Shown piece after piece: positions 1,531-58,800 of a stretch of DNA of 64,000 bases. Below the pieces are notes generated by a model. It was given only the letters and a program-made list of their open reading frames with translations. It was not told the DNA's origin and ran no database searches. Source of the stretch: Owenia fusiformis (lineage: Eukaryota > Annelida > Polychaeta > Sabellida > Oweniidae); assembly GCA_903813345.2 (NCBI GenBank), contig CAIIXF020000011.1:19701754-19765753 (forward strand), written 5' to 3'. The position numbers and the translations under genes are program-made. The stretch's first letter is position 1. Each line of letters starts with the position of its first letter.

Positions 1531-1531
1531 A

Positions 1532-8740: not shown

Positions 8741-8769
8741 ACTGTCTCAGTTTATACCTACAAACACAA

Positions 8770-8785
8770 GGTCCTTCTCAGGACC
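8770..8785 (+). terminator. 3' stem-loop, H2B unit 2
   Basis: Same 16-nt hairpin. Confidence 0.95.
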
Positions 8786-9849: not shown

Positions 9850-10179
<330 letters not shown>

Positions 10180-10206
10180 ACAACCCAGCGACAACAACAA
10201 TCACAA

Positions 10207-10222
10207 GGTCCTTCTCAGGACC
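10207..10222 (+). terminator. 3' stem-loop, H4 unit 2
   Basis: Same 16-nt hairpin. Confidence 0.95.
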
Positions 10223-10978: not shown

Positions 10979-11425
<447 letters not shown>

Positions 11426-11453
11426 GAAGCCAACTCCTCCCAACACAACACAA

Positions 11454-11469
11454 GGTCCTTCTCAGGACC
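11454..11469 (+). terminator. 3' stem-loop, H3 unit 2
   Basis: Same 16-nt hairpin. Confidence 0.95.
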
Positions 11470-25800: not shown

Positions 25801-27844
25801 GTCTGTTTTGACTTCCAGCACTAGCCTTTGCCAATTGATGATCAAGAAATCTGTTCCGAATGAAAACGGCTGCATGGTTTTTGAGGTCTGGATGTTTTAG
25901 AGAATTGTGTTAAAACTTAATTGTCCAAAGCATGTCCATAGCCTAGTCTCGACAGGCTGGTGGCATGATGTAAGGTAGAAGGAGGGACCTAATTGCTCAT
26001 ATTTCTGTTTTTTGCCTATTTTTAATTTACTACTAGGAATGGCCTTTGTGAGTTGATAATCAAGAAGTCTTATTGGAAATGTGTAGAGATTGAGGATTTC
26101 AAATGTAGAATTGTATTAGAAATAGTCTTAAGCATGCATGTATCTGCTACCTGTAGGCATGGTGTATATAGTAGAAGAAGGGACCCAACTGCTCATATTT
26201 CTGTCCAATTGTCTATTTTCACTACCAGAAATAGCATTTGTGAGTTGATAATCAAGAAATATTATCCAGAAGTGTAGTATTTGAGGATTTCATGTGTAGA
26301 ATTTTGTTAGAAATAGTCCAAAGCACATGCATGAGCTGCCAGTAGGCATGTCACATGGTAGATGAAGGGGACCTTATTAACTCATATTAACATTTGATTT
26401 TCTGTTTTTACTATCAGAAATAGCATTCACGAGTTGATAATCCAGAATAAGAAGTTCTTGAGAATTTCATGTGTAGATTTTTGTTAGAAATAGTCTAAAG
26501 CACATGCATGAGCTGCCAGTAGGCATGTCACATGGTAGATGAAGGGGACCTTATTAACTCATATTAACATTTGATTGTCTGTTTTTACTATCAGAAATAG
26601 CATTCACGAGTTGATAATCCAGAATAAGAAGTTCTTGAGAATTTCATGTGTAGATTTTTGTTAGAAATACTAGTAGTCTAAAGCATACATGATCATGAGC
26701 TGCCAGTAGGCATGTCATATGGTACATGAGGGGGACTTAATTACTCATATTAACATTTGATTGTCTGTTTTCAGTTTTCACTATCAGAAATAGCATTTGT
26801 GAGTTGATAATCAAGAAATCTTTTCCAGAATAAGAAGTTCTTAAGAATTTCATGTGTAAAAATAGTCTAAAGCATGTATCAGCTATAGCTGTAGGCATGA
26901 TGTATAATATAGTAGAAAATGGAACTAATGGCTCATATTTCTGTTAAATTGTCTACGTTCACTATTAGGAAAAGCCTTTGTGAGTTTATGATGAAGAAAA
27001 ATTATCAAAAAGAGGTAGTCTTTCTGGATTTGATGTACAGAGTTGTGATAGAGATTGTCCGAAACATATACACTGACTGCAAAGCATGGTAAATGGCAGA
27101 AGAAAGGACTTCATTAAAGCCTTTTTGAGCTGATTATCAAGAAATCAGATCCAGAATGGGTGTTTCTGAGGACTCGACGTCTAGAATTTTGTTAAAATTG
27201 TCCAAAACATGCATTTACTGCCTGTAGGCATGGCATATAGGGCACTGGTAGAGGAAGGGAGAAATTGCACACATTTCTGTCCTATTGTCTATTTTCACTA
27301 TATGGTATGTAAAAGCCTTAAGAAACATTTTCCAGAATGGCTATGCTATACTTTTTGAGTGTGTGATAGAGAATTTTGTTAAATATTGCCTAAATCAGGC
27401 ATTGGCTGGGCTGTAGGAAGGGTATATGATAGAAAAATGGACTCTCAGTTGCTCACATTTCTTTCCAATGGTCTAACTAACTGAACTGTCATTTACATAG
27501 GATGACAACCAACCAAATCCTAGCCAGAATGGCTAATTTTGAGATTTTTTAGGTGGAGGCATGACTTATGGTAAGCCTAGGTACTTAATTGCTCATGTTT
27601 CTATCCAGTTATCCAAATTAACTGTAAGAATATAGCCTTATTTGATCATGAGCTGATAATCGAGATATAGGACATGTAGAACTTTGTTAAATATTGTATA
27701 AAGCATGCATTGTGCTGGCTGTCTGTACTGGTACACCATAGGAATTAGTCTATGTGAGTCGACAGTCAGCAATTCATATACAGAACATGTAGGCTAGATC
27801 TAAGTGACTTGATGTGCAGAATTGTGAAAAGATCATTGACAAGA
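25801..27844. repeat. Spacer satellite, unit 4/5
   Basis: Same block. Confidence 0.8.
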
Positions 27845-27936
27845 AACAATTCAGACAGCAAATGGTCAATTTGAAAGACGCGACAAACCAACAATTATTC
27901 ATAAGTATCAAAATTTCTCTTTTGTAAGAAAATGGT

Positions 27937-27952
27937 GGTCCTGAGAAGGACC
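27937..27952 (-). terminator. 3' stem-loop, H2A unit 5
   Basis: Same 16-nt hairpin, minus strand. Confidence 0.95.
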
Positions 27953-27982
27953 TTGTGGTTGTTGTTTTGAAGTTGTCGCCGC

Positions 27983-28360
27983 TTATGCTTTGCTGGCCTT
28001 GCTCTTCTTGGGGAGAAGTACAGCCTGGATGTTGGGGAGGACACCTCCTTGGGCGATGGTGACACCTCCGAGAAGTTTGTTCAATTCCTCGTCGTTGCGG
28101 ACAGCCAATTGAAGATGACGGGGGATGATTCTGCTTTTCTTGTTGTCACGGGCAGCATTACCGGCCAATTCCAAGATCTCAGCAGCTAAGTACTCGAGAA
28201 CGGCAGCCAAGTAGACTGGGGCACCAGCTCCCACTCGCTTGGCGTAGTTTCCTTTGCGAAGAAGACGGTGGATTCTTCCTACTGGGAACTGAAGCCCAGC
28301 TCTGGTGGATCGGCTCTTTGCCTTTCCCTTTGCTTTTCCTCCTTTACCGCGTCCAGACAT
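27983..28360 (-). CDS. H2A: Histone H2A, unit 5
   Basis: 125 residues, same protein. TATA box at 28419-28426 (minus), stem-loop at 27937-27952. Confidence 0.98.
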
Positions 28361-28655
28361 GATAGATTGTGATTGCTTCGAAAATTCAAAGTAAAATGAT
28401 CGAAAAAATCCAAATTTCCTTTTATACCCTCAGAGTGGATTCAGACTGCAGAAAAACTGGCCGCTTAGCGAAGCTAGTGTCTCGCTATTGGTCGACTTTA
28501 AGAGCGCTTAAAAATCGACCAATCAGCGATGAGCAGTCTCGTTGAAAGTCGAGTTTCTCTGCAGCCAGAATCCACTAATTTGCATACGGTTCTCATATAA
28601 ATACATTTCGCTTCGACCTGGCCATTTATTACTCGAGAAATCTCAGTACGTCAAA

Positions 28656-29024
28656 ATGGCACCCAAAGCAGCAAGCAAAGGAAGCAAGAAGGCGGTCAAG
28701 TCAAAAAGACCAGCCGGAGGAGACAAGAAACGCAGAAGGAAGAGGAGGGAATCCTACAGCATCTACGTGTACAAAGTCATGAAGCAAGTGCACCCCGACA
28801 CTGGAATTTCCAGCAAGGCCATGAGCATCATGAACAGCTTCGTCAACGACATCTTCGAGCGTATCGCCGGGGAAGCATCCCGTCTCGCACACTACAACAA
28901 GCGATCCACCATCACCAGCAGAGAGGTACAGACCGCCGTACGTCTCCTTCTGCCCGGTGAGTTGGCTAAGCACGCAGTCAGCGAGGGCACCAAGGCCGTC
29001 ACCAAGTACACCAGCTCCAAATAA
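28656..29024 (+). CDS. H2B: Histone H2B, unit 5
   Basis: 122 residues, same protein. TATA box at 28596-28602, stem-loop at 29054-29069. Confidence 0.98.
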
Positions 29025-29053
29025 ACTGTCTCAGTTTATACCTACAAACACAA

Positions 29054-29069
29054 GGTCCTTCTCAGGACC
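29054..29069 (+). terminator. 3' stem-loop, H2B unit 5
   Basis: Same 16-nt hairpin. Confidence 0.95.
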
Positions 29070-30133
29070 ACCTTTTACTTGCAAAAGAGATATTACGTTT
29101 ATGAATTAATTTATTATCTTGATATCTATTTGCAATTTTTGTCGCATCAATCTGGAATGACGTAAGCCTACGGGTTTAGTGTGTGTGTGTGTGTAAGCTA
29201 ATATATATACTAATATATAATACTTCACTTAGCCCCTGTAGCCTGTTCCCCGACTCAGAAATTCACGAAATAAGTTCCGTCTGGTGCATGTGTATGTTTC
29301 TTGCGTGGCCCGTTTCACCCCTTTTCCCGTCATATGATCACTACAAATGTGGTATCATCTGAAAGCTATCGTTCCCAGCTGGACAATGATACCATCAAAT
29401 CAGAAATCCGTCCAGAAACAACCGAGCTAGGGGCGGAAAACCTGTGCCATTTCTAAAAAGTCAGTTTAGAGTCGAAAAAGTGGATTGGCGCTGCAGGAAA
29501 ATCGACCAATCAGAATGCTCGATTTCTCAGTATTTCTTATGGTGAATTTTACCGTTCTCAGAAACGCCGGATCGCTTCGAAAGTGATACCGTCGGAAAGC
29601 TGGCATCATCAGCTTCACTATGACACTATTCTTTTAGAAATCGATGGAGAAACGGCGGAGAAAAAGACAGATAAGTGTCGTCATTTCTGAAACGTCGAGT
29701 TTGGAGGCTAAAAGTAGATTGGGACTGCAAGAAAGCCGACCAATCAGAACGCAGCATTTCTTATGTGAAACTTGGAATTCGAGAAATCGTCTTTACCCTA
29801 GATTTCACCCATTTTCTCGCGATTCGATCACTGCCAAAGTGATACCATCGGAAAGCTATCGTAACGAGCTAAACGATGGTCTGATTTATTTAGAAATCCG
29901 TCCACAGACGGCGGAGTTATAGACCGATAAGTGCCATTTCTTAAACAGCCAGTTTAGATCAGAAAAGTGGATTCAGACTGCAACAACTTTATGCTAATTA
30001 GATAGTTGGCCTATCTAGGTTAGTAGGTCACAAATCTAGGTTAGTAGGTTTGTTCTGTCAAGGCCGCGCGTGTTTCGTATATAATCAGATCTCCGTCATT
30101 CCGACTTCATTATTTCGACTGAAAAGCTCGTAA

Positions 30134-30463
<330 letters not shown>

Positions 30464-30490
30464 ACAACCCAGCGACAACAACAATCACAA

Positions 30491-30506
30491 GGTCCTTCTC
30501 AGGACC
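30491..30506 (+). terminator. 3' stem-loop, H4 unit 5
   Basis: Same 16-nt hairpin. Confidence 0.95.
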
Positions 30507-31262
30507 ACCTTTTCTTACAAGAGAGAAATTAATAGGTTTATGAATAATTACTCGTAACTTACATAACGTGTGATAGATCTAATGCATGTGTTTTCTTCGT
30601 TTAAAGCTTAGTCTATGAAATGAATTTGACCTGAATAATAGCTCGACTTTCCCTGTTTGTGTGTGTGATTCTATGACTTGCTGGCGTGAGTTGCCTTTTA
30701 GTTAGGCCCAGGTCCAATCGTTTCTAGGGGTTTGTGTTAGATTTTCATAGTTTAATAGCCCCCATTGTCTTGCCCGCCGGACTAGATAACTAGCCCCATC
30801 GAATACTTGAAATCGCGCCGATGTCTCCGATTGAAAATTACCCCCTACATGCATTTTCTCGAAAACCCACGGTCACTTTGAACGCTGTTTTTCTTCTAGT
30901 TTTCGACATCCAATCTCCGCAAAATACCTATCGAGAGACGGGGCTTTCCATTATCTTCAAGATGAGTACACACATAGCGACGTTAGTCTTTAGGTAATGA
31001 GAGAAATCGACGATTTTCTAAGAGGGGTAGGGCAAAAAATCATTTTCGTTTCAGCATCATGTTTTGCGACACTTTCGCCTAAAAAGTGGATTCAGGCTGC
31101 AGAGAAATCACGAATGCTAGTCGCCTGTGATTGGTCCATTAACGCGCCTTCTCCCGATGAACCAATCGCGCGATAGCCCGCCTAGAAAGTAACCAATCAG
31201 CGAAGACCAGCCAAGTCGGACCCTAGCCCATATACTGGTGGCGATTTTTACAGCGGAATTAA

Positions 31263-31709
<447 letters not shown>

Positions 31710-31737
31710 GAAGCCAACTCCTCCCAACACAACACAA

Positions 31738-31753
31738 GGTCCTTCTCAGGACC
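31738..31753 (+). terminator. 3' stem-loop, H3 unit 5
   Basis: Same 16-nt hairpin. Confidence 0.95.
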
Positions 31754-32562
31754 ACCTATTACTTTCAAAAGAGACATTGATGTTTTATGAATTGTTAGCT
31801 TAATGTGTGTGATTGTGTTCCGTGAGAGTGTGTGTCGATTGAAGACTATAGTCTAAAGCTATATAGACTATCTAGGCTACTTACTAATTAATTTATCAGA
31901 ATGATAATCAAATACACGTATCTGTCTAGCACTTCTATCAATCAATCTGTGAAATAATGCTTCATAAATTGATGAGCTGGTCTAGCCTAGAGGAACAGTG
32001 GTTGTACTTACTAGGCTAGGATTGTGACAGTCCGAGGTGCTTCTGCGTCCATGTGATTTCTGGGATGTTATGATATATAGGCGTTTGCGCTGATAGATCT
32101 GGATGTGCATACGTATTATAAACGGCCCAGCGATGCCGACGTAGGGGGAGGGGGGCCAGGGGGCGGGGGTTCTAGTGAGGGATGGCTGGCTTGGTGTTAT
32201 TACTCTGATGTTGATGTTATGGCTGCCTCGGTATTTTAAAGTACATTTTCGATTTATCTGCCATCTTTCTTTAAAGCGTGAAGCTCCCTTGCTCATTACA
32301 AAAATCCACAAGGCTGGCAGATACATGGGTGGAGGAATTGTTTTGTCAGGAGTTTGTTTCTACCTACCTGTTTTGTGATCGAACAGCATGTATGTGCCAT
32401 AACAACAGGATAAGTAAACAGGATGGGTATTGTATTTAGAGCCAAACAAAAGGCAAACAATGCAACTTTATATTATGTAGTTAATCCAACAGTGACAAAT
32501 CAGTTTAATTTGTGTGGAATCTTACATCTCATGACATTATGAATTAATATTTCTATTTATTT

Positions 32563-34606
32563 GTCTGTTTTGACTTCCAGCACTAGCCTTTGCCAATTGA
32601 TGATCAAGAAATCTGTTCCGAATGAAAACGGCTGCATGGTTTTTGAGGTCTGGATGTTTTAGAGAATTGTGTTAAAACTTAATTGTCCAAAGCATGTCCA
32701 TAGCCTAGTCTCGACAGGCTGGTGGCATGATGTAAGGTAGAAGGAGGGACCTAATTGCTCATATTTCTGTTTTTTGCCTATTTTTAATTTACTACTAGGA
32801 ATGGCCTTTGTGAGTTGATAATCAAGAAGTCTTATTGGAAATGTGTAGAGATTGAGGATTTCAAATGTAGAATTGTATTAGAAATAGTCTTAAGCATGCA
32901 TGTATCTGCTACCTGTAGGCATGGTGTATATAGTAGAAGAAGGGACCCAACTGCTCATATTTCTGTCCAATTGTCTATTTTCACTACCAGAAATAGCATT
33001 TGTGAGTTGATAATCAAGAAATATTATCCAGAAGTGTAGTATTTGAGGATTTCATGTGTAGAATTTTGTTAGAAATAGTCCAAAGCACATGCATGAGCTG
33101 CCAGTAGGCATGTCACATGGTAGATGAAGGGGACCTTATTAACTCATATTAACATTTGATTTTCTGTTTTTACTATCAGAAATAGCATTCACGAGTTGAT
33201 AATCCAGAATAAGAAGTTCTTGAGAATTTCATGTGTAGATTTTTGTTAGAAATAGTCTAAAGCACATGCATGAGCTGCCAGTAGGCATGTCACATGGTAG
33301 ATGAAGGGGACCTTATTAACTCATATTAACATTTGATTGTCTGTTTTTACTATCAGAAATAGCATTCACGAGTTGATAATCCAGAATAAGAAGTTCTTGA
33401 GAATTTCATGTGTAGATTTTTGTTAGAAATACTAGTAGTCTAAAGCATACATGATCATGAGCTGCCAGTAGGCATGTCATATGGTACATGAGGGGGACTT
33501 AATTACTCATATTAACATTTGATTGTCTGTTTTCAGTTTTCACTATCAGAAATAGCATTTGTGAGTTGATAATCAAGAAATCTTTTCCAGAATAAGAAGT
33601 TCTTAAGAATTTCATGTGTAAAAATAGTCTAAAGCATGTATCAGCTATAGCTGTAGGCATGATGTATAATATAGTAGAAAATGGAACTAATGGCTCATAT
33701 TTCTGTTAAATTGTCTACGTTCACTATTAGGAAAAGCCTTTGTGAGTTTATGATGAAGAAAAATTATCAAAAAGAGGTAGTCTTTCTGGATTTGATGTAC
33801 AGAGTTGTGATAGAGATTGTCCGAAACATATACACTGACTGCAAAGCATGGTAAATGGCAGAAGAAAGGACTTCATTAAAGCCTTTTTGAGCTGATTATC
33901 AAGAAATCAGATCCAGAATGGGTGTTTCTGAGGACTCGACGTCTAGAATTTTGTTAAAATTGTCCAAAACATGCATTTACTGCCTGTAGGCATGGCATAT
34001 AGGGCACTGGTAGAGGAAGGGAGAAATTGCACACATTTCTGTCCTATTGTCTATTTTCACTATATGGTATGTAAAAGCCTTAAGAAACATTTTCCAGAAT
34101 GGCTATGCTATACTTTTTGAGTGTGTGATAGAGAATTTTGTTAAATATTGCCTAAATCAGGCATTGGCTGGGCTGTAGGAAGGGTATATGATAGAAAAAT
34201 GGACTCTCAGTTGCTCACATTTCTTTCCAATGGTCTAACTAACTGAACTGTCATTTACATAGGATGACAACCAACCAAATCCTAGCCAGAATGGCTAATT
34301 TTGAGATTTTTTAGGTGGAGGCATGACTTATGGTAAGCCTAGGTACTTAATTGCTCATGTTTCTATCCAGTTATCCAAATTAACTGTAAGAATATAGCCT
34401 TATTTGATCATGAGCTGATAATCGAGATATAGGACATGTAGAACTTTGTTAAATATTGTATAAAGCATGCATTGTGCTGGCTGTCTGTACTGGTACACCA
34501 TAGGAATTAGTCTATGTGAGTCGACAGTCAGCAATTCATATACAGAACATGTAGGCTAGATCTAAGTGACTTGATGTGCAGAATTGTGAAAAGATCATTG
34601 ACAAGA
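32563..34606. repeat. Spacer satellite, unit 5/6
   Basis: Same block; the last one, since unit 6 is cut before its own H3 and spacer. Confidence 0.8.
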
Positions 34607-37966: not shown

Positions 37967-38778
37967 CCATCTAAATAACTGGACTATATTTTTGATTGTA
38001 AAGTGCCATCTATTCGTATTCCCAGCGGCGGAAGGAGAGCTTTGTTGATTGGTAAAATCTAGCGGACTGACTGATTAATTAATTGTGTGAACCATTTCTG
38101 AAAATGGAAACGTTTATTTGCGCAAAAACTGAATCACTTACTCAGTGTCCCCGAAATATGCCTTTGGCAAACGAAAAACCAATTGCGGAAAGTAGAATGA
38201 GCGAAACGGAACTCAGATCTATGCCAAAATCTCTACTAACGACGCTAACCATGCATTTTTCTTTGGGACTATTTTTTGACCTCGACGGCAGGCTCTCAAC
38301 GCACGTCTTTAGGCTAGGAGTCCTCTCTGTAAGATGTTACCTTGGATCTTTCATTATTTCATTAGCATTGATTTTATCTATGTAGCGCTGGTTCATACGA
38401 ATTTTAAACTGTTGATCGTTTTACCGAACACTGAACAAAATATACATGTATGTAATATATATAAAAATTAATTCCATTATTTATTGGATTGGATGAAGGA
38501 GAAAATTGTGGCTTTTACATTTTTCATTTGTTAATGTGCAGTGACTTCTAGTTATGCCATCACCAAGAGGTTCTTTAAATTAATAGCATCCATTGGTTGC
38601 ATAAACGGAGACTTTTTTGCGAGGACTTTTTTGCAAGATCTAGTGCATATATTCTCGAAAAAAGCATAAAATGACTACTCACTGACTATTAATGCACAAT
38701 AAGATACATGTACCTGAAGTGTATGTAACTTGCCACTTTTACACTCCCCTCCATAAGCTTGGCAACGCTAACTCCCTA
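37967..38778. other. Unassigned sequence between histone array and foldback element
   Basis: AT-rich, no recognised gene. A 100-codon open frame at 38083-38385 has no domain I recognise and no sign of splice sites or promoter; I do not call it a gene. Confidence 0.5.
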
Positions 38779-39400
38779 TACTCTAAGAGCGAGGAGGAAA
38801 ATTCTTAATAAATGGAGTATAGTTGGTTTGGCAGCATTTTCAGTTAGAGGGAAGTCTTGGATGAAAATTCTACCTAGGTGATAGCTTCACAGAGTGGTAC
38901 ATAATTCTTTTTTTTCAGGGGTTAGTCCCCACCCCCCAAAAACACCCCACCCCCGGAAAATAATTTTTTCATTCTCAATTATTTTAGATATCTTGATGTT
39001 TATAAGTTACATACATAGACATTATATATATGAATCATTTGCAAAATAAATAATGCCAATCACTCCTACAGAATTTGGAAAATACTACAAAGTATGTACC
39101 CCAGGGGGCAAATTCGTGACCCATTTTCTTACTATTTAGAGACACACTTTTCAATCAGACACTGGAAGACATTGAAAAATTTCATGTGAAGTGCCCAGTA
39201 GCAAGGTTCAAACTAATTGAATTAGTAGGAGCCGAGAAAAAAATTGTTGATTTTTTGAAAATGTTGACATTTTTGAGAGGGTTGATTTTGTGTATGACTA
39301 TAGGTGATGCCTAAGGTTTCCAGATCTATCCCTCTTTGATGATAAATATGGTTTTGAAGTATGGAACTAAGATGTAAAAAATAATTAAAGTGGGTTTTAA
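38779..39400 (+). repeat. Left unique terminal inverted repeat
   Basis: Pairs with 43780-44400. Includes a C-rich stretch near 38930 matching the G-rich stretch near 44230, and the segment ending GAGAAAAAAATTGTTGATTTT. Confidence 0.85.
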
Positions 39401-42150
39401 GGAAGTTTCATGTTTTAAACAAGTTCAAAATTCCAAGAATTGTACAATATCAGGTCTGAATTTACAAATTTTACGTAAGACCTTGGACGAGCCTTAGTTT
39501 TTTTTACATCTGTCCCCCTTTGATGATATTTATGGCTTTGTAGTATGGAACTAAGATGTACAAAATAATTTAGATGGGTTTAAAGAAGGTTTAAGAATTT
39601 TAACAAGTTCAAAATTTGAAGAATTGTACAATATCAGGTCTGAATTTAAGAATTTCAGGTAAGACCTTGGATGAGCCTTATATTTTTTACATTCGTCCCT
39701 CTTTGATGATATGTATGGTTTTGTAGTGTGAAACTAATTAGTAAAAAATAATTAAGATGGATTTGAAGAAAGTTTAAGGATTTTAAATGAGTCCAAAATT
39801 TGAAGAATTGTACAATATCAGGTCTGAATTTATGAATTTCAGGTATGACCTTGGATGACCCTTATGTCTTTTAAATCCTTCCCTCTTTGATGGTATTTAT
39901 GGTTTTATAGTGTGGAACTAAGATGTAAAATATAATTTAGATGAATTCTAAGAAGGTTTAAGGATTTTTAACAAGTTCAAAATTTGAAGAATTGTACAAT
40001 ATCAGGTCTGAATTTACGAATTTCAGGTAAGACCTTGGATGGCTTTTATGTTTTTACATCTGTCACTCTTTGATGATATGTATTGTTTTGTAGTGTGGAA
40101 CTAAGATGTAAAAAATGGTTTAGATGGTTTTGAAGAGTGTTTAGGGATTGCAATGAGTCCAAAATTTGAAGAATTGTACAATATCAGGTCTGAATTCTCG
40201 AATTTCAGGTATGACCTTGGACGACTCTTTTGTTTTTTACATCTGTTCCTCTTTGATGATATTTATGGTTTTATAGTGTGAAACTAAGATGTAAAATATA
40301 ATTTAGATGAATTTTAAGAGATTTAAGGATTTTAACAACTTCCAAATTTGAAAAATTGTACAATATCAGGTCTGAATTTACGAATTTCAGGTAAGACCTT
40401 GGATGGCTCTTATGTTTTACATCTGTCACTCTTTGATGATATGTATTGTTTTGTAATGTGGAACTAAGATTTTAAAAATGATTAAGATAGTTTTGAAGAG
40501 TGTTAAGGGATTTTAATGAGTCCAAAATTTAAAGAATTGTACAATATCAGGTCTGAATTTTCGAATTATAGGTATGACCTTGGACGACTCTTTTATTTTT
40601 TACATCTGTCCCTCTTTAATGAGTTATAGTTTTATGGTATGGAACTAAGATGTAAAATATAGTTTAGATGAATTTTAAGAAGGTTTAAGGATTCTCACAA
40701 GTTCAAAATTTGAAGAATTGTACAATATCAGGTCTGAATTTGCAAATTTTAGGTTTTATATTTTTTTTACACCTATCACTCTTTGATGATATGTATGGTT
40801 TTGTAATGTGGAACTAAGATGTAGAAAATAATTTAGATGCATTTTAAGAAGGTTTAAGGATTTTAATTTGAAGAATTGTTCAATATCAGGTCTGCAATAA
40901 ATGAATTTCAGGTATACCCTTGTTTAGCCCATATGATTTTAACACCTATCCCCTTTCCATGATTTGGTTTAGTTGTGTGGAAATATGTATAATTTACATC
41001 GATTTTAAAGAAGCTTGACATTTTAAACAAGTTCAAAATCTTGGCGTATTGTATAATATCAGATCTGAAATTAAAGAATTTCAAGTATAATCTTGGTTAG
41101 CCCATATGATTTTAACACCTATCCCCTTTTCATGATATATTTGGTTTAGTTGTGGAAATATGTATAACATAATTTACATCGATTTTAAAGAAGCTTAAAA
41201 TTTCAAACAAGTTCAAAATCTTAGCGTATTGTACAATATCAGATCTAAAATTAATGAATTTAACCTCTTGAATCCCAGGCTCTAAAATTGGCATGAAACC
41301 AGAGAATTTTTCATTTTTTGCCACCTTTTGACATTTTATTACATACCTATACAGCTTTAGATGCTCAGCTTAGTAAAACTGGACGGCAGAGATCATTTCT
41401 TCACGTTTTAAAACAATTTTTGTGTAAATTGGATGAAAATTGTTCAAATGATCGAGAGCAATTTTTGTGAAAAATTTTGTGACGGAGTTTCTCGTCCCTC
41501 TGGGCACCAGTCTTATTTCATTTGTGACGGATATATCCGTCACTCTGGGTATTCAAGAGGTTAAAGTATAACCTTGCTTCGCCCTTATATTTTTAACATC
41601 TATCCTTTTTTGATGATATATATGATTTAGTAGTGTGGAGCTAATATATAAAACATAATCAAGATGGGTTTTAAAGAAGTTTAAGGTTTTAAATAAGTTC
41701 AAATTTTCACAAATTGTACAATATCAGAGCTGATATTAATGAATATTGGGTATTTAGGTGAGCCTTATGTTTTTTACATCTATCCCTTTTTGATGACATA
41801 TATGCTTTAGTAGTGTTGAACTAAGATGTTAAACAAAATTTAGACAGGTTTTAAAGAAGCTTAAGGTTTAAACAATATAAAAAATTGAAGAATTGTATAA
41901 TAACAGGTCTGGAATTTATATATTTTAGGTATAACTGTGAATGGCCCTTATTCTTTTTTTTACATATATCTCTCTATGATAACATATATGGTTTTGTAGT
42001 ATGAAACTAAGATGTAAAACATAATTTAGATGGGTTTTAAGGAGGGTTTAAGGTTTTAACCTGTTCAAAACTTGACAAATTGTACAATATCATATCTTCT
42101 GACATTAACGAATTTCAGGTATGTATCTCTCTATGATGATATATATGGTT
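39400..42150 (+). repeat. ~182-bp satellite, left array
   Basis: Anchor TTGTACAATATCAGGTCTGA or variants at 39441, 39625, 39809, 39993, 40175, 40357, 40538, 40719, 40877, 41050, 41230, 41715, 41894 and 42081. Steps are 181-187 bp in most intervals; the long 41230-41715 interval holds a MITE. Confidence 0.9.
41264..41560. mobile_element. 297-bp MITE with TTAA target duplication
   Basis: Terminal inverted repeats CCTCTTGAATCCCAG and CTGGGTATTCAAGAGG, flanked on both sides by TTAA (41260-41263, 41561-41564). TTAA duplication and CCT-type ends are typical of piggyBac-related non-autonomous elements. Close to the right end is the palindrome TGACGGATATATCCGTCA (41525-41542). Removing the element and one TTAA restores a 184-bp satellite step. 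Confidence 0.85.
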
Positions 42151-42174
42151 TAGTAGTATGGAAGTTTTAAGGAA

Positions 42175-42400
42175 GTTTAAAGGCAGAATCAGATCTATGG
42201 GTGTGACAAAATTACAAGCAACATGTACAGTTCATGTACCAATCTTTTCCTTACAATCTCAAATACAATATCTCCAAAAAGATTCACGATGTGTTAAGTT
42301 TAAAGGCAGAATCAGATCCAACATGTACAATTCATGTACCAATCTATTCCTTACAATCTCAAATACAATATCTCCAAAAAGATTCACAATGTGTTAAAAA
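42175..42400. repeat. Local direct duplication in the foldback centre
   Basis: Two copies beginning TTTAAAGGCAGAATCAGATC (about 42175 and 42299), the first with a 20-odd bp insert. An open frame across it is a product of the duplication, not a gene. Confidence 0.7.
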
Positions 42401-42466
42401 TTGATGAAGTAATAATGGATTCAAAAAGCAAAAATGGGTGAAAAATGTTTAAATTCTCCCAAAATA

Positions 42467-42489
42467 ATAAGAATGGTAACCATTCTTAT
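42467..42489. repeat. Perfect 10-bp hairpin in the foldback centre
   Basis: ATAAGAATGG, loop TAA, CCATTCTTAT. Lies between the two arms. Confidence 0.6.
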
Positions 42490-42719
42490 GGAAAAAATAC
42501 ATTATTGTAGAAATCTTTAGTTTTCCTGAAATAAAGGGTGCACTTTGGGGATTATTAGCAAATAGACATGAAAAGGAATTACATAAGCCAGAAATATTCA
42601 AAAAGGTCCATGTGCAGTATGGCAAGTGATTTTAGACGGTCATATATTTCACCATGAGTACTTTCTGGGCATAAATACAGTGGTTTAAATACATGTCAAC
42701 ATTTTTTTCTAAATGTTTA

Positions 42720-43780
42720 GAGCCAACCAAGGTTATACTTGAAATGTAGTGTTAATTGCCGAATTAATATTGTACAATGCTCCAAGATTTTGAACATGTG
42801 AAAATCCTTAAACCTTCTTAAAATCCATCTTAATTGTTTTTTACATCTTTTTTACATCTTAGTTCTATCCTACAAAACCATACATATCTTCAAAGAGGGA
42901 CAAATGTAAACAATACATGTATATGGCTCACCAAAGGTCTTACCTGAAATTCGTAAATTCAGACCGGATATTATACAATTTTTCAAATTTTGAACATGTG
43001 AAAATCCTTAAACCTTTTTAAAATCCATCTTAATTGTTTTTTTACATCTTAGTTCCACACTACAATACCATACATATCTTCAAAGAGGGACAAATGTAAA
43101 CAATATATGGCTCACCAAAGGTCTTACCTGAAATTCGTAAATTCAGACCGGATATTATACAATTTTTCAAATTTTGAACTTGTTAAAATCCTTAAAATCC
43201 TTAAACATTCTTAAAATTCATCTAAATTATATTTTACATTTTAGTTCGTTACTATAAAAGCATAAATATCATTAAAGAGGGACAGATATTAAAAACATAA
43301 GAGTCATCCAAGGTCATACCTTAAATTCGTAAATTCAGACCTGATATTGTACAATTCTTCAAATTTTGGACTCATTAAATTCATTAAACCTTCTTCAACA
43401 CCATCTAGGTTATTTCTTACATATTAGTTTCACACTACAAAACCATAAATAGCATCAAAGAGGGACAGATGTGAAAAATATATGGCTCACCAAAGGTCTT
43501 ACCTGAAATTCGTAAATTCAGACCTGATATTGTACAATTCTTCAAATTTTGAACTTGTTAAAATCCTCAAACCTTCTTAAAAACTATCTAAATTATTTTG
43601 TACATTTTAGTTCCACACTACAAAGCCATAAATATCATCAAAGGGGGACAGATGTAAAAAATTTAAGGCTCATCCAAGGTCTTACGTAAAATTTGTAAAT
43701 TCAGACCTGATATTGTACAATTCTTGGAATTTTGAACTTGTTTAAAACATGAAACTTCCTTAAAACCCATTTTAATTATT
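42720..43780 (-). repeat. ~182-bp satellite, right array (inverted)
   Basis: Six reverse-oriented copies, anchors near 42771, 42971, 43154, 43347, 43531 and 43713; most similar to the outer copies of the left array. Confidence 0.85.
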
Positions 43781-44400
43781 TTTTTACATCTTAGTTCCAT
43801 ACTTCAAAACCATATTTATCATCAAAGATTGATAGATCTGGAAACCATAGGCATCAGCTATAGTCATACACAAAATCACCCCTCTCAAAAATGTCAAATT
43901 TTTCAAAAAATCAACAATTTTTTTCTCGGCTCCTACTAATTCAATTAGTTTGAACCTTTCAGGGCTTATAGCCCTGCTACTGGGCACTTCACATGAAATT
44001 TTTCAATGTCTTCCAGTGTCTGATTGAAAAGTGAGTCTCTAAATAGTAAGAAAATGGGTCACGAATTTGCCCCCTGGGGTACATACGTTGTAGTATTTTC
44101 CAAATTCTGTAGGAGTGATTGGCATTATTTATTTTGCAAATGATTCATATATATAATGTCTATGTATGTAACTTACATACATCAAGATATCTAAAATTAT
44201 TGAGAATGAAAAAATTATTTTCCGGGGGTGGGGTGTTTTTGGGGGGTGGGGGGCTAACCCCTGAAAAAAAAGAATTATGTACCACTCTGTGAAGCTATCA
44301 CCTAGGTAGAATTTTCATCCAAGACTTCCCTCTAACTGAAAATGCTGCCAAACCAACTATACTCCATTTATTAAGAATTTTCCTCCTCGCTCTTAGAGTA

Positions 44401-44640
44401 CTAATTGGACTACGAGTTCTGACGTGTTAAAGCCTCTTTATTTTTTGAATTTTTATTTACATAACCAGCAATGAAAATACTTATGATAAGGGTGACAATA
44501 ATGTAACTTGAGTTTTTGAAAATTGTAATTCCCATGTAAACCAATGGGAAATGCTGAGTTAGGGGGAAATCAGATTTCTGAATATATATTCAGTAAATTC
44601 TCCACCAAAAATATTTATGTAGAAAAAATTGAATTGTCTA
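44401..44640. other. No feature recognised
   Basis: AT-rich sequence between the foldback element and the retrotransposon fragment. Confidence 0.4.
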
Positions 44641-44657
44641 ACTTTTTTGGACTCTAA

Positions 44658-45390
44658 GTGTCAAGTTTACTTCCTGAACATTTAAGTTACAGAGCTTCAA
44701 AGTCATTTTTGAAATCATTTCACCTCCTGTGTTATTTCAATGGGAGAGGTTTCTTGAAAAATAATTTTGACTTTGGAGACCTCAAATCACTCAAATCCTA
44801 CTTGAATGACGAATCCTCAAAACTTTCTGATACTTACTTAATCAACCTTGGTGTCCACAAGGGGCCGATGGTATTTATCCTGTATATTAATGATGTTCCT
44901 TACAATCTGGATGGCCAGTGCTTCATTTATGCTGATGATGTCTCTGTACATTTTAAACTTGATCAAAAATACCCTACTAATGTTGATGATTCTGTCAAGC
45001 TTAGAAAGTCAAGCTTAGAACATATTATTGAACAATGGTCAACTACTTGGAAACTACACTTTAAACCACAGAAAAACCGTGAACTGATATTCCATAATCC
45101 TAGAACATGTAGAACACGTATTAATAATATCAGTCCAATAATATGGGAAAAGTAAGAGCTACTTCTCACAAACACCTCGGTTTCACTTTCGATCCCTGCT
45201 TTACACACAGACAGCATATAAGTAACATCTATGATAAGGTAATAAAAATGTTGAATTAATTTTAAAAAAATAAAAAAATAAGATAGGTTCTAGTTATTTA
45301 GAGACAATCTTCAACTCTTGCCCCATTTTGATTATCCTAACAGACCAGCTACCTAGAACCAACCAAGACAAACTTGAACTTTATATTTTT
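44658..45390 (+). pseudogene. Degraded non-LTR retrotransposon reverse transcriptase
   Basis: A 165-codon frame (44658-45155) contains GVHKGPMVFILYINDVP (residues 65-81) and FIYADDVSVHF (89-99). These match reverse transcriptase motifs of LINEs: the Gly-Val-Pro-Gln-Gly block, here altered and shortened, and the catalytic (Y/F)ADD box at residues 91-94. After a frame change the text KHLGFTFDPCFTHRQHISNI appears (about 45168-45227), the usual thumb region of such enzymes, and then LETIFNSCPIL and NQDKLE near 45300-45380 after another interruption. With no endonuclease, a shortened motif and at least two frame breaks this is a dead 5'-truncated copy, probably of a CR1/Jockey-like family. Confidence 0.8.
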
Positions 45391-47606: not shown

Positions 47607-47747
47607 TTACATTCCAAATAGTTCACCTTCTTTTAGAGTCTCTGGTAAAGTCTTGCCCATTGTTTCTGGTAGGAGGACGGCCATGATGCCAGTAAGGATT
47701 GGTATAATTCCCATTACGAGATATGGTAATCCATACCATGATTTAGC
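47607..47747 (-). CDS. SLC22 gene, exon 9
   Basis: 46 codons and TAA: TM12 and LPETMGKTLPETLKEGELFG, then Met and stop. The stop overlaps a donor-like GTAAGT, so a longer tail by splicing to an unseen exon is possible. Confidence 0.85.
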   Translation of the reverse strand, partial: AKSWYGLPYLVMGIIPILTGIMAVLLPETMGKTLPETLKEGELFGM

Positions 47748-50700
47748 CTGGTAAGATTGAAAAATACATGCATTTGATTTATATCTCCCAAACCACTCCC
47801 TCATTATCAAATCAAACGAGCTTCGAGGGGTATAGAGAATGGGTTCATCTGTGCGTCCGTACATCCGTCCGTCCGAGCAATAACTCAAATACCATTATCG
47901 TTTATATTTCGTACGTATATGCCCAATTTCAGTACAAGTTCTGCACGGGACCCAATTCTAAAAATGGCTACTGGTTTCAAAATGGCGGCCATTTAAATGT
48001 CAATTTTACGATGTCAGCATACAAAAGTGTAATCATAATATGTTTTAAATGCATGTAGAGTATGAATTGAGTTGAAAATCCTACATCTTTGATGATTGGT
48101 GGTTGTTACACAAGATTTTACGATTTTTTCTGAAAAAGTAGTTGAGCGATTTTGTTTATATTTGACATGTGAATAATCTAAGAAGAATATTACAATATGA
48201 CAATATCAGCCACGGTCGTTCGATTGAATATACTCAAGTAGAATTCACATTTATTGACTAAATATTAATTAAAAAAACAGTTTCTTTATTCTTCACTTTT
48301 GATAGTGAATCATACTTACCAGAAGTGGGATTTGTGGTGCAATGAGTCCACCTATTCTACCAACGCTAGATCCTCCCCCCAACCCTGCAGCTCTGACTGG
48401 CGTGGGGAAGATCTCTCCACTGTATAGATATACTGCATTAAAAGCTGTAGCTGCAAATGCTAGTCCAATTAATGAAGCAATGGTAGCTAAAGCTGGTATG
48501 CCTAGAAAGATGAAAAGATGGAGATTTAAGAAATTATTTTGTTATATGGATCCTTGTTTTGCCTTGTCTTATAAAAGTTCAGATCTATAATTAAGTTTTC
48601 GAAATATGGGTAAATTGAATATTTTAACCTGTACCTCTCTCGCGAAAAGGCAATCGTGGGTTGTTCCGAGGTAACCAGTGCTAGTGATATTTTGAGCTAT
48701 GCGAGAATACACAATGATGAACAAATAGGGCATATATCGTGTTGTCGCGTTGGTAGAAGGAGGGAATGCACGCATCCAACGCTAATGGACGTAATTCGAA
48801 TTCTATCTAGTCCTATTTTAAACATATGGTTGTGCTTTAATCTTGCTAGTTGTATGAACATGAAAAAATTATATATGTCAACATATTATATTTATTGTAT
48901 TTAATGAAGGTCAGCCTAACGAGCCATCCAATTTGTGACTATATAATATACACAGTTACATTCGTGCTCATTTCTTTAATTCGCATTGAACTCTATTCTC
49001 ATAAACATGGGTTTTAATCACTTACTTGTCAGCCTGACAAAGCCAATCATGCTGAATGAAAATAATCCTGAGATGATTAGAGCAAGCATCAATCCCTTAA
49101 CTCGTCCAATTTTGTAGTAAACTACATATTTGATTGGTAATACCATAATTTGCCCGAGCCCTAAGACTATGTACATATTCAGGTACACATTTCCAGGAAT
49201 AAGTGTTCCGATGTTCAACTGTACTGCATAGTTAGCAAATACACAAGCAAACCTAGGTTTGGAAAATCATAAAAGACTCAATGATAATTGTGCATAATTT
49301 TTACTTCAACATAATTTTTACTTCAAAATTGATTTAGTTAATACTTCTTTCGTTGATCATTATATTAATTCAGTACATGGTGAGCCAAAGAAGGTAACAC
49401 AAATAAATGCTAATGACTCAGTCATTCAGCATGTGTTTATAAACTCATATTTAGGCACAATTGAGGTTTTTCCATATAGCTTTGAAATCTCGTTAAAGTC
49501 TCGTTTTTAAGAGACTTTATGAGATCTGCATTTCTTACCACTAAAGACCAACATTTTCTTCTTTTAAATGGCATATTTAAATTCTATGTTACTTTGTATT
49601 CAAACAGCTTTGATTACACAGTTATTTATTCAGATTTCCAGGATTTTTAAGTTTTCTGAAAAGGGTCGGGCTAAATCCCCATTGACACATTGTTGAAAAT
49701 ACTGTAAATATCCATTAACTCTTTCGAGGGTCACAATTTTAATATTAAATCACAATTCACATGTCAAAAAGATTACAAAGTCACATGCCAATGGAGTTTC
49801 ACATGGAAACATTTGAAAAATCAAACAAATTAATAAGTGATTTTCTGGTAGTTCTCTGTATACTTGTAATGGTATTTTAGCCCTACCAACTCTCACACTG
49901 CCATCTACAGGGCGTCCACAAAAAAGTATACCCAACTTCATATCCGAATTACTGGAATCCTAAGCAGTTTTTTAAAATACAAAGGTAGAAGTAAAAAGGT
50001 CATGTATGACTGAGTAATCTTGACCATTATGAGAGGTGGTAAACTTAGCACTATGTCATGTTACCTTCCTGTGTGGCCTTTTTCCATATAATGGAAAAAT
50101 AGATGGCATCAAGAGTACTGGTAGGGCTATGGTAGGGCTAGAATACATGTAAATGTATTGCCAGAGTCACTTACTTTCTTGATTTAAGAAGTAATTGCAT
50201 TTGGAACAACTTAAAACACCATTGGAATGTAACTATATGATCTTATTGACATGTGAATTGTAATTTCACATTATACTTATGATCTTTGTTCGACTATTTG
50301 AACTTTTAAAGATTTTTCAGCATTGTGTCAATGGGGATTTAGCCCGACCTTTTTTAGACAACCAGAAAATCATTAGAATTTGAATTAAGGTAAATAACGG
50401 TACAAATCAAAAAGTTGTTTTAATAGAAAATTACACACAGAATTCAAATATGCCATCAAATAAAAGAAAATGTTAGTTTTTAATGGTTAAAAATGCAGAT
50501 CTCCAAAAATCTCATTAAAAACGAGACTTAACGAGATTTCAGAGCTATATGGAAAAAGGACCATTGATGTGTATTGGCTTAGTTTTCTTTTTCTGTTACA
50601 CTAAGTTAGAGGACATGCCTTCCACACTGAACTGGAATTGGAACTACTTTCTTATGAAAAAAGGTTTGGCAAAAGCTTAACTTACTCCAAAGGCATGCAA

Positions 50701-53700
50701 ACATGGTTCAACTGACAACTGAGCAGTAGAGCCAACAAAAAGTTCTAAAACGCAAGTCCAATGTACTGTTTATAGAACCCCTATTCTTAATATTGAAATG
50801 GTTTCCAGCAATACTGTCCCACAAGAATCTACTTGTTTAGACTCAATAAACTCAAGTTCTTGAGGATGAGGATTTCAGCAAAGGTTATTGACGCTACATG
50901 GGGATATCGGACTTCAAAGCTGCATATCGATCGCTGTTCAAGAGACTCTTTGGATCCAATTTCTCGAGAGGGAGGTACCAACTAAAAGTTATGGAAAATT
51001 ATGCAAAAGTGTGAAGAACATAAAACAATTATCAATTTGAACATAAATAATGTTTTGAACACAAAAAAACATTCACTGTGTCATTCCTACGTGAATGCTA
51101 ACTTTGCACAGTGCTGATTTTCTTTCATAAAAGTCATGATTGCTCAGTCATCCATGACAGTTACATAATGATCTTGGTACCATTGAATGGAGGACAAACT
51201 AGGCCTTTTACTGCTACCTTTGTACTTTTAAATAATTGCTCAGAACTCTAGTAACCTGGCATTGAAGTTGGGTATACTTTTTTGTGGACGCCCTGTATTA
51301 ATTCTTCTCTATACATCTATATAGAAAATGGTCACCGTGTTCAATGTACCTTCGTTTCAAGTTTAATTAGTCTCTTTCCAATGGTTTCGAATAATGACAT
51401 TTTACAAAACGTCTTGACGCTATCTCAAATATAATGTCTATGTACATTAACAACCCTAGATTAATCAGAGGGTTCAAACAAGGGGTGTGAAGGAAGATGA
51501 GAGCATTCAAGCGTGTAGTGAACATTTGCCTCTTCAGAGAAGACTAGGCCAGTATGTGATATGGCCATAAAATCGTGACCATTTTGAAGTAGACCAATGG
51601 TATTCGGTAGGAAAGAACATAGCTACGGTTTGTATCATGTTTGTGTTAAATATGACTTAAATGCTGAATGATTGGGTTATCAACATTTGTATGGCATAGG
51701 CGTAGCCGGGGGGGGGGGGGGGGGCTAATCAACATAAATACAAGCAGAAGATAGAAGAAGAGCTTTAAAATGCTTTTTATTTGAAGTTCCTATCTCAATT
51801 TTGAAGAAAGTTGCATCAATTTTCGTATAACTCAAAACAAATCTTAGAATAATTATTTTTTGGGGTTGCTTATGTCACGATCGTACCACATGGCTGAAAA
51901 CCGATTGTTTGGTGATCGCACCTCCCTGACCGAATCCTGTGTGTTTTAATTGTTCCATGCATATGTGCATGTATGACGATAATGTCCTTACCATATTGCA
52001 AAGACAATGAATGTAATGCGTCTCATCCTTGGCGTCCTGAACAAGTCGAAAATGATTGCTTTCTTTCCTCCTTCTTTCTTCCGTTCTTCCTAATAACATT
52101 TAAAAGAAGTGAAAATGAATTATATATTTATTTTACTTGTGATATTATAAAGGAATTCCCGTAACCTTGTTAGTAGATAATTGCAAATTTTGAATGTGGT
52201 GGAGAACAAAGTATGTTGTAACATTATGGGAAGATGACATGCACAGAGACGAGTAATTAATTGCCTAATATTGCTCATTGATCAAGATATCAAACATTGA
52301 CTAATTATTACATATTTTATGATCTGTACACGTGTAGTAGTCTTGCATCTACTACATTAAGTTATCTCATATTTTTTTTATTTCATTGAATAATATTGCA
52401 CGTTTGTCTTTTCTATGTGTAGAAAGGTATAGTTTGCAAAACGTCTAGGTAGCTTTACATTGCATATGTCCATTGTTGTTTGTCATGAACTTGGTCACCT
52501 TTGTAACATTTCACGATTATGCACATGAACATGTATTCTATTATCACCTCTGCAATTCCTTCCATTAACTGTTCATGATTCTCTGGAACTTCTTTTCCAT
52601 TAACTCTTGCCATGATTCTGGTCACTTTCGTGGCAGCTTTAACTTGCCCTATGGACAAATGCCATCTGGCAGACTCTGGCGTTATGCTATAAATGGTAGA
52701 GGAACAATAGTACTAGATCTGGTAGTTGAAATAAAGGTTTTATAATAGTTTTTAAAAGATCCGGATCTGAGAGAAAGTAAAATATATATAATAGAATCTT
52801 TGAATGTATGTTGGAACATGAAATGAGACTAAGAAACCTATAATATTGTTAAATTGTTATAATGATCGTATGATTGATGATTGATATTGATTTACGATAT
52901 ATATATTATGTAATATGAATATGTAATGATGAAATAAAAAAAAAAAAAAAAAAATAATAATAGAATCTTTCATTTGCATCCAGGTGGGAAGATATGCTTT
53001 GTATGCTTTATATGGTTGTAATATTCTGTTTCAAAAGTGTTTCCCTGTGTGAATTTCATATGACACTTCTGTCTGTTTATCAGAATTTAAAAAGGTATAT
53101 GAAAGATGTGTGATACATGTCCCATGCATGCTACCCCAATGTTCCATACACTAACATGATCAATGGCTTTTGGCAATGTTTACCATTCAGATCTTGGATT
53201 TTCAAAATGCAACAAAATACTATTGCAAGATTATTTTCAAAAATTCAATGTTCATTATTATTATGAATTATTATTAATATATGAATTGAATTTCAATTCG
53301 TTAACTATATACCATCGCACAACAGCATTACAAATGATGAGTCCTCCTGTTACAAGTTGTAGAGTAATATGATTCCTCACATAGAAAGCAGTCAGTGGTA
53401 ATGTGCCAAGTCTGATGATGCTTGTTGCAGTATCAACTATTTCAAATGCATTCCGACCATTGGATGTTAAAACCTCCAAGCCTGCATATTTATAAATGGC
53501 ATTAATTCTAATTTTACAAATATATTATTTCAATTTCTTAATTCATCTAAATGTAATCATATTCGTAAATCCTGTATACGTATTTCGATTGGCGGGTGCA
53601 ATATTTCGCGCCCTGTACAGGGTAAGCTTTTCGCGTGTTTTTATTTAATGTTTTGGAGGATATACTGTTCATTTGTAGTAACCAGAATCCCAGAAAATCC

Positions 53701-56700
53701 AGAAATATATCCTGCTGAAAATTATAAATTTCATTACTTGGAATCTTTAGTATTGTTTCCTTTCTTTTGAGCAAAATTTAATCCCTTGGAGTTTTTGAAG
53801 TTATGGAGGATTTCAACAAGGGGTGAGAAGTTATGGAGGATTTCAACACGGGGTGAATTGGAAGAATTAAAATATTTCAAAAATAAATCTCTACAAATGA
53901 ATTAATCGAGGAAAAGGTGGACTTTCGTGGAGATTGGATGATTATTTATTTCTGATAAAATTATTGCAAAGAATGTGCTCTGGGGTCAAAACGCACCTCA
54001 AAAACAATTTGAAGGTTAATGAAACGCCAAGGGATTTTGCTAAATTTGTAAAACAAAAGACTCTTCAAAGTATTGAAAACAGGAGTTGTGTATCAGGACA
54101 GGACATAAAACCTCATAATCAACGAAGCGTCTATTTTTATCACTAATTTAATTTCTAATAAGCAGTGTGTGTAACTCACAAGTTGTAAAATGCGTTGTAT
54201 ACCCTGCCATTGAAGCCATGCATGATAGTGCCATCAGAATTAGATACAAAATGTAATTTGGTGAAAATGGTGTACTTATTGCAAAAGCGATTTCTAGAAT
54301 CGTCCACACTAGTGATGTTCTCATTCGTCCCCATCTATATGAAAAATAAAAATAATATTATTTATCCTATGTTTATATCATAAATCTTATTCTTCAAATG
54401 TCTGTGGTAGACAATTATTTGGAATATAAGTGAAAGTAAAATAGAAGCTAAATGTGAACCACAGGTTGATGAATGGTCGACAAAAACTTTAGAAAGATTA
54501 TAATGGAATAAGCAGGTTACTTCTGGTCGGGCTTGATTATGAGTTTACCCTCAGACAATTTGATATTGACCTTGGATAGTATCTTATCCATAAAGCATAT
54601 CCCCTTTCAGTTAATATCCCTTTGGTCAATATCAAAATACCCCTCAGTCAATATCCCTCTACCCCCAATTCAATGTCCTAATAGTCTTTTGGTCAATATC
54701 ATAATACCCTTTGGTTAATATCCTATTTCCCTTCAGTCAATATAATACTACCCTCCAGTCAATATCATACTGCCCTTGGTCAATATTATACTACTCTTTC
54801 GTCAATATCATACTACCCTTCGGTCAATATCATACTACCCTTCCGTCAATATCATACTACTCTTCTTTCAATATCATACTACCCTTCGGTCAATATCATA
54901 CTACCCTTCCGTCAATATCATACTACTCTTCTGTCAATATCATACTACCATTGGGTCAATATCATACTACCCTTGGTTAATATCATACTATCCTTCAGTT
55001 AATATCATACTATTACTTCTATTCGGTCAATATCATGCTGCCCGTCAGTCAATATCCTACTACCTTTCAGCCAATGTCATACTATCCTAAGTCAATATCA
55101 TAAAACCCTTCAGTCAATAAAATACTACCCCTGGTCAATATCATACTACTCTTCAGTCAATATCCTAATACCCCTTTGGTCAATATCCTCACCACCCTTC
55201 AGTCAATATCCTACCAACCTTAAGTCAATATCGTACTACACTTCGGTCAATATCATACTATCCCTACTAAATTTATATTATACTACCCTTTGATCAATAT
55301 TATACTACCATTCCATCAATATCCTACTACCCCTCAGTCAATATTATGCAACCCTTGGTTGTTATCATAGTACCCTTCAATTTTATACTGCCCTTCAGTC
55401 AATGGCACCCTTTGGTCGATATCATATTGCCCTTCAGTCAATATACTACACTTCAGTCAACATCCTACTACACTTCGGTCAACATCCTACTACCATTCAG
55501 TTTATATCTTATTATCCTACACTTAGTGTACTAAATGTATAATAACATTAAAAAATAAATTTGATATTTATTGGCAAAATGAATAACCGGAGGATATCGT
55601 AACGATATACTCCGGGCGGAGGATATCGTGACGATATACTCCGGAAAACCCAATATGCGGAGGATATTGTGACGATATACTCCGCTTGTTGATTTCCCGC
55701 CAAATTGACTCTATTTGGCATGAAATTAATTTTGCAATGATATTATACATTTAGGACACTCCCTGTAAGTGTAGGATAATAAGAAAATCCTATGACTTTT
55801 TCAGAATATCATTTTAATCTACTCGGTGAAATTGATATATACACTTGTTCGCTTTGCTCTCTCGTGCAGATATCAATATCACCTCGTAGATAAAAATGAT
55901 ATTCCTCAAAATCATAGGATATCCTATAACTATCTTACCTTCAGTCAATAGTCGATATCATATTGCCCTTCAGTCAACATCCTACTACACTTCGGTCAAT
56001 ATCTTACTACCATTTAGTTTATATCTTACTACCCTTTGGTTAATATTATAGTACCCATTAGTCAATATCCTATTACCCTTCTGTCAATATCCTACAACCC
56101 GTCAGTCAATATCATGCTACCCTTGGTTGATATCATAGTACCATTTAGTCAATATAATACTAACCCTCAGTCAATGGCACCCTTTGGCCAATATCATACG
56201 ACTCTTCAGTCAATATCCTACTACCCTTTAGTTTATATCTTACAGTACTACCCTTTGGTCAATATCATAGTCAATAGCCTACTACCCTTCAGTCAATATC
56301 ATACTACCCTTTGGTCAATGTCATACTGCCTTTCAGTCAACAAGTTATACCACTTGAGATGCTGAAGGATGTAGGAATTATTTAAGACATTGGCGCTGAA
56401 CTCAGAATTTTTTCACTTGGCACCTTTTGAGGTGGATCCCGGCTATGGCATTAATGGTTGAGAAATAGGGATCGAAACCAGCCATAGTTTTCTCCTGATG
56501 ACCATTGTGTATTATTGTGTTTTATGGATTATGACGACGGCTTTTGTGAATAGATGTTGACCCTTTGAAACGCCTATGGACTTGGAGACTGGATTTTATC
56601 CATCCCACATCATTTGAGACTGAATGCTCTATCTTGTATGAGTACTTGCATCTTCAACTATTTTTGATGTTATGAGTATTGGCTATCGATTTTTTCTTCA

Positions 56701-58688: not shown

Positions 58689-58800
58689 TCTGATTTTCTT
58701 GCATTTATCAATTTATTGCTACATAAGTTTGATGATTATATGTTATAGTTTCAACTAAATTAATGAATAAAAGTTGTAAATCACATGTCGATTGATATAC

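Follow-up and report, generated by a model that had tools for sequence, protein, structure and literature searches.

A dispersed foldback element family with satellite-like arrays in its arms and 3-bp target duplications in the annelid Owenia fusiformis

Tetris of Drosophila virilis is described as a non-autonomous foldback element in which a unique flanking domain is followed by tandem repeats in the arms and by a non-coding middle (PMC4079207). Galileo of Drosophila mojavensis, a member of the P superfamily, also has long inverted arms (PMC3573991), and in Tm1 of Meloidogyne, a Mutator/Foldback element, the two terminal inverted repeats (TIRs) of a copy are given as 93% identical on average (PMC3169594). 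The Cg_HINE Helentrons of Crassostrea gigas are non-autonomous elements which are reported to have spread satellite-like arrays through the genome (PMC7492417). Here we describe an element with the general layout of Tetris, alike to Galileo in its long arms and to Cg_HINE in the satellite-like arrays that it carries. It occupies positions 38779-44400 of the window, that is, the whole stretch of 64,000 nucleotides analysed from Owenia fusiformis (contig CAIIXF020000011.1, positions 19,701,754 to 19,765,753). The family to which it belongs is very probably a non-autonomous cut-and-paste DNA transposon of foldback type, since its copies are dispersed, their termini are fixed, their 3-bp (base pair) duplications vary and their long inverted arms contain arrays.

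The window copy has the features of the foldback class, namely long inverted arms, unique ends, internal tandem repeats and a target-site duplication. The unique ends lie outside and the tandem arrays inside, with a centre between the arms. Array edges were taken from profile envelopes and are accurate to a few bases; the arrays themselves were delimited with nhmmer and Tandem Repeats Finder (TRF).

38776..38778 (no strand): target-site duplication, left copy (CTA), identical to 44401-44403
38779..39323 (+): left unique TIR, 545 bp, starts TACTCTAAGAGCGAGG, 98.0% identity to the right end
39324..42165 (+): left tandem array, 14 nearly full ~182-bp monomers and one partial, broken by a nested insert (nhmmer, TRF)
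41260..41564 (no strand): nested short inverted-repeat insert with TTAA on both sides, placed from its inverted termini and the TTAA positions
42166..42717 (no strand): centre, class I, 552 bp, two copies of a ~100-123-bp direct repeat; the class is common to 22 of 40 centres
42718..43837 (-): right tandem array, 6 monomers in opposite orientation (nhmmer, TRF)
43838..44400 (-): right unique TIR, 563 bp, terminates CCTCGCTCTTAGAGTA, holds 17 bp absent from the left arm
44401..44403 (no strand): target-site duplication, right copy (CTA), identical to the left copy

The arms align as a single inverted repeat, 38779-40410 against 44400-42719, with 88.4% identity over 1684 columns (blastn). A first-pass annotation, made from the sequence alone, had described unique inverted ends of 0.6 kb and about 14 and 6 copies of a ~182-bp satellite in opposite orientation, and the closer measurement agrees with it on both counts. 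The 98.0% identity of the unique ends was obtained over 545 aligned columns, with 11 mismatches and 18 gap columns, and the outermost 122 bp are identical. Moreover, matches to TACTCTAAGAGCGAGG with at most 3 mismatches occur in the window only at the element's two ends (chance expectation 0.27). The arrays have a TRF period of 183-184, and the identity between mirror monomers is highest outside (97%, 94% and 89% at positions 1, 2 and 3). The 17 bp at 43960-43976 (CAGGGCTTATAGCCCTG, an almost perfect palindrome) occur in the right arm, as they do in the family consensus, and are absent from the left arm of the window copy. No stop-to-stop frame of at least 100 amino acids (aa) was found overlapping the element.

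An exact search of the 498-Mb genome with the 16-bp end gave 80 forward and 80 reverse matches, and the reversed-pattern control gave 0. The first-pass annotation had held that an end unique in the genome would suggest a one-off inverted duplication, and the 160 matches are the opposite of this. They resolve into 71 facing pairs, of which one has a further end inside it, and 17 single ends, where 0.25 facing pairs would be expected under random end placement; the pairs have a median length of 5428 bp (range 933-11588) and are present on each of the 12 contigs C1-C12. Two further matches only were added when two bases of the end pattern were relaxed.

We read 43 of the 71 pairs in full, these being the window copy, 40 whole copies and two long copies, each from two pieces. 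The family termini are fixed as TACTC...GAGTA. The repeat is present in both arms of 42 of the 43 copies. In 40 of 41 copies, and in both long ones, forward monomers are followed by reverse ones; the lone exception, L022 (933 bp), has its ends and its duplication intact, and has a large internal deletion and no left array. Satellite copies per element, which the annotation had suggested counting, number 8-16 in the long arm (median 12) and 3-11 in the short arm (median 6) of 40 copies, the long arm being the left one in 17 and the right one in 23. The copy nearest to that of the window among those read is L043, with ends 99.4% identical by arm. Searches against plasmids (with 522 bp of the left end), viral contigs and prokaryote contigs gave no match; three 16-mer matches in viral contigs were taken as chance.

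The 40 centres compared comprise 22 of class I and 14 of class II, the latter of 153-312 bp. Three centres of 42 bp appear by eye to be class II with a deletion, and that of L030, ungrouped at the length cut used, still matches class I over 87 bp. Class I centres differ in their number of ~123-bp repeats, with at least five in L021. In L062, at 285-1017 from the end, there is a second inverted-repeat sequence whose arms recur in class I centres (for example at window 42601-42686); for this reason the class I centre may hold a captured piece of another element.

The insertion signature is regular. An exact 3-bp direct repeat borders 42 of the 43 copies, with a chance of 0.023 per copy, and a scan of 41 copies for direct repeats of up to 11 bp gave none longer than 3 bp. 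The triplets of 40 copies are of 23 kinds (TTA six times, TAA three, ATA three, the others once or twice), and the two long copies have ACT and ATA. Over 42 sites we observed a weak palindromic target preference, T.C.WWW.G.A, position -2 being C in 33 of 84 half-sites (background 16%, p 2.6e-7).

The annotation had also proposed a comparison of empty with filled sites. When the joined flanks of 41 copies were compared with loci L004-L055 and the window, three related empty sites were found in other repeat copies, and the target triplet is single in each. The flanks of L040 match window 44513-44740 at 78%, with a 12-bp gap just left of the site; those of L020 match L010 at 82%, the left side covering only about 20 bp; and those of L033 match L018 at 71%, with gaps. 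Together with the 71 pairs and the 3-bp duplications, these sites support the transposon-like boundary which the annotation had joined to satellite arms.

The left array of the window copy is broken by an insert of about 0.3 kb which starts TTAACCTCTTGAATCCC, has short inverted termini and carries TTAA at 41260-41263 and 41561-41564. We take it to be piggyBac-like. The array is uninterrupted by this insert in L043, L037, L051 and others, and the insert is thus younger than its host foldback element. No further copies of it were found among loci L004-L055.

The search for coding capacity gave little. The longest frame in 41 copies has 149 aa, and 12 frames of at least 110 aa, in 11 copies, include none over the Pfam cut-off, in a scan of a kind that would miss genes with introns or decayed frames. 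The 149-aa frame, in L050, was considered as mariner-like and rejected since it has no Pfam match. Two long copies were considered as autonomous and also rejected: the 11.6-kb copy owes its length to a nested retroelement of long terminal repeat (LTR) type, recognised by eye, and the 10.5-kb copy to a nested long interspersed nuclear element (LINE; RVT_1, E 2.3e-41). In the nested LTR-type retroelement (L052 and L053) integrase-like motifs appear by eye to precede reverse-transcriptase-like ones, and integrase before reverse transcriptase is an unusual order for Gypsy-type elements.

The 3-bp duplications were also compared with those of known superfamilies. PIF/Harbinger elements duplicate 3 bp, TTA or TAA; the length fits, and only 9 of the 40 triplets are TTA or TAA. 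No match to the PIF/Harbinger transposase domain DDE_Tnp_4 (PF13359) was found near the ends among 150 of 269 candidates scored, the nearest lying 68.6 kb from any of the 160 ends. Tc1/mariner was rejected, as 40 copies show 23 different triplets, many without TA, and so was a TA duplication with the element starting at CTCTAAGAG, since the varied 3-bp repeats enclose TAC..GTA in every copy. CACTA elements have the termini CACTA, and those of the family are TACTC. Zator and AcademX, for which duplications of 3 bp and of 3 or 4 bp respectively are listed (PMC10045372), both fit in length; the profile PF07592 (ISAzo13-like), tried for Zator, was silent here and in 14 controls alike and is hence uninformative. 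IS3EU is described in the same source as having TA..TA termini and usually 6-bp duplications (PMC10045372). The termini TACTC...GAGTA agree with the TA..TA of IS3EU and GingerRoot, and the 3-bp duplications of the family do not agree with the 6 bp usual for IS3EU.

Several other explanations were weighed against that of a mobile foldback family. A one-off inverted duplication of a satellite array and its flank, without mobility, could look alike in a single copy, and the window copy taken alone shows a mere 3-bp edge repeat; with 71 paired copies on C1-C12, three related empty sites and duplications at all but one of the 43 copies read, this explanation has hardly any probability left. The repeat might instead be an independent satellite that has invaded, or is now seeding, arrays that stand free, the element being its launch pad. 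The arm arrays do reach 16 units with a clear satellite-like period, and Tetris offers a precedent, as it is reported to have given rise to free satellite arrays (PMC4079207). For the family described here the numbers argue otherwise. An exact 23-mer of the monomer has 492 matches in the genome (231 and 261; control 0), and 40 elements contain 257 of them, or 6.4 each; at this rate 456 would be predicted for 71 pairs and 514 for 80 elements, and the observed number lies between. Among 100 of the 492 matches listed, 97 are inside listed element pairs, and the other three are found 7.4 kb inward of the single end C1:33890373. No free satellite arrays were seen in the assembly by the exact 23-mer, which diverged or unassembled arrays would escape. 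As far as an exact word and the assembly can show, the repeat is therefore confined to the family, and an independent satellite is very improbable. The first-pass annotation had seen in the element a possible source from which the satellite spreads; carriage of the satellite inside the element was found, and its release into free arrays was not seen by this word.

A stronger rival, which we still consider doubtful, is that the family arose by deletion from an autonomous transposon, itself still present in the genome under the same ends, either at the diverging single ends or among the unread pairs. Eight single ends were followed for about 1.4 kb, and three continue as the element; the five others share only 43, 78, 80, 146 or 176 bp with the family, as might be seen with such a parent. 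Two of the diverging ends, L057 and L060, both depart from the family at about base 78-80 into unrelated DNA, and L057 continues into a ~146-bp tandem repeat. The longest frame in the five diverging stretches is however of 107 aa, and one of them, L063, looks like an interrupted copy since satellite is found 7.4 kb further in. In addition, the relaxed end pattern adds only two matches, and none of the 150 scored PIF/Harbinger matches is within 68 kb of the 160 ends.

We therefore return to the non-autonomous foldback transposon. Its movement would depend on a transposase encoded elsewhere, which would bind the ends and make 3-bp staggered cuts at AT-rich sites, while the outer arms would be homogenised by conversion between them, either via a hairpin or in the course of gap repair. 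Additional binding sites for the transposase may lie in the monomers, by analogy with what has been published for Galileo.

The comparison of arms is informative on the conversion step. The unique ends of 40 copies have a median identity of 96.6% within a copy and of 94.5% between copies, for same and opposite arms alike, and in 38 of these copies the within-copy identity exceeds the copy's median to others. When the highest of the three end comparisons was taken for each of 780 copy pairs, it was the within-copy one in 643, the same-arm one in 117 and the opposite-arm one in 20. Only the outer ~0.9 kb of the arms is on average more alike within a copy than between copies, and from these averages we infer conversion between arms that would be limited to this outer part. 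Further inside, when each monomer was matched to its closest counterpart in another copy, the two shared their array position in 408 of 717 cases (about 36 under shuffled positions); monomers thus tend to keep their position between copies, and the arrays are for the most part passed on as blocks, together with the element.

There are, nevertheless, points that weigh against the reading as a whole or against its conversion step. No transposase was found and the superfamily is unassigned, with 43 of the 71 pairs read. L025 has no target duplication and L022 no left array; chimeric copies of Galileo are also reported to lack matching duplications (PMC3573991). With regard to conversion, the 117 copy pairs mentioned above are those in which same-arm identity beats within-copy identity, and of 80 ends, 42 have their single closest relative in the same arm of a different copy and only 19 in the opposite arm of their own copy; same-arm nearest relatives are as expected if close sister copies exist. 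Monomer 1 of the long arm is 94.8% identical between copies, about the same as the identity found for this monomer between the arms of one copy (94.2%). The excess identity of mirror monomers within a copy amounts to only 1.7 points at positions 1 and 2 and falls to 0.4, -0.2, 0.3 and 0.6 points at positions 3 to 6. Finally, a conserved box was sought in the monomer, and the best 20-column mean was 0.946, against a mean of 0.929 and a maximum of 0.960 for shuffled columns. As this stretch is no stronger than the shuffles, conservation gives no support for a binding site.

A more specific proposal would place this foldback lineage in a superfamily that duplicates 3 bp and would give the array a function within the arm; conversion would keep only the outer ~0.9 kb palindromic, and the inner arrays would drift as positional fossils. 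We regard this combination as unlikely. As an example of such a function, the array may be a transposase-binding ladder, its unequal numbers (about 12 and 6) marking the two ends.

The surroundings of the element in the window were also examined. Positions 1-37966 are a tandem array of a 6.76-kb unit, about 5.6 copies at least 99.98% identical, and the foldback begins 0.8 kb past its end. The unit has four core-histone-like frames, one on one strand and three on the other, which we presume to be H2A on the one and H2B, H4 and H3 on the other; H1 was not among the M-starting frames of at least 80 aa in the one unit read (27047-33808). Eleven histone 3' stem-loop matches were obtained with Rfam, and each unit also contains about four copies of a 177-bp repeat. 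On the other side of the element, a reverse-transcriptase fragment (RVT_1, E 3.1e-5, under the Pfam cut-off) lies at 44658-45155, and the segment 44513-44740, just before and into this fragment, recurs at the flanks of L040. Scattered frames on the minus strand of 47607-58712 look by eye like exons of an SLC22-type transporter; the only one of them scanned, 58194-58712, had no Pfam match. Arrays of a 22-bp repeat (54618-57248) occur among these frames, and a 612-bp self-inverted repeat (78%) at 59448-60059 is another small foldback-like sequence.

In the open-access literature no description of the family was found by title and abstract start, subscription papers and Repbase being outside this search; a search of open-access print gave no match to the longer strings from the end and the monomer, and a short end string occurs in five papers, all unrelated by title. 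Among the described systems the family is nearest in design to Tetris and then to Galileo subfamily F. The arm repeats of Tetris are of about 220 bp and variable in number per arm, compared with ~182-bp monomers here, and its duplications are of 8-10 bp, against 3 bp in the family; only three structurally complete copies are mentioned in its description (PMC4079207). The flank and the repeat of Tetris are reported to share 37 bp (PMC4079207), whereas here a search for a shared origin of unique end and satellite gave no significant match between them (best local E 0.063; 33 bp, 78.8%). Galileo subfamily F is described with up to three tandem repeats of about 210 bp inside the TIR, whereas up to 16 monomers per arm are found here, and Galileo has 7-bp duplications and TIRs of up to ~1.26 kb (PMC3573991). 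Tm1 differs in its repeat units of about 14 bp and its duplications of 8-10 bp, mostly 9 (PMC3169594), and in Cg_HINE the arrays are central, between Helentron flanks (PMC7492417), whereas the present family has two opposed arrays inside TIRs and a target duplication. We conclude that the family works like a Tetris-type foldback, and yet that it is neither Tetris nor Galileo because the length of its duplication differs. It joins a Tetris-like design, with tandem repeats inside foldback arms, to a different insertion signature, in an animal with a genome unlike that of the fly. With about 70-80 copies and arrays inherited largely by position, the family could be used to trace how a repeat changes inside a transposon before a free satellite exists.

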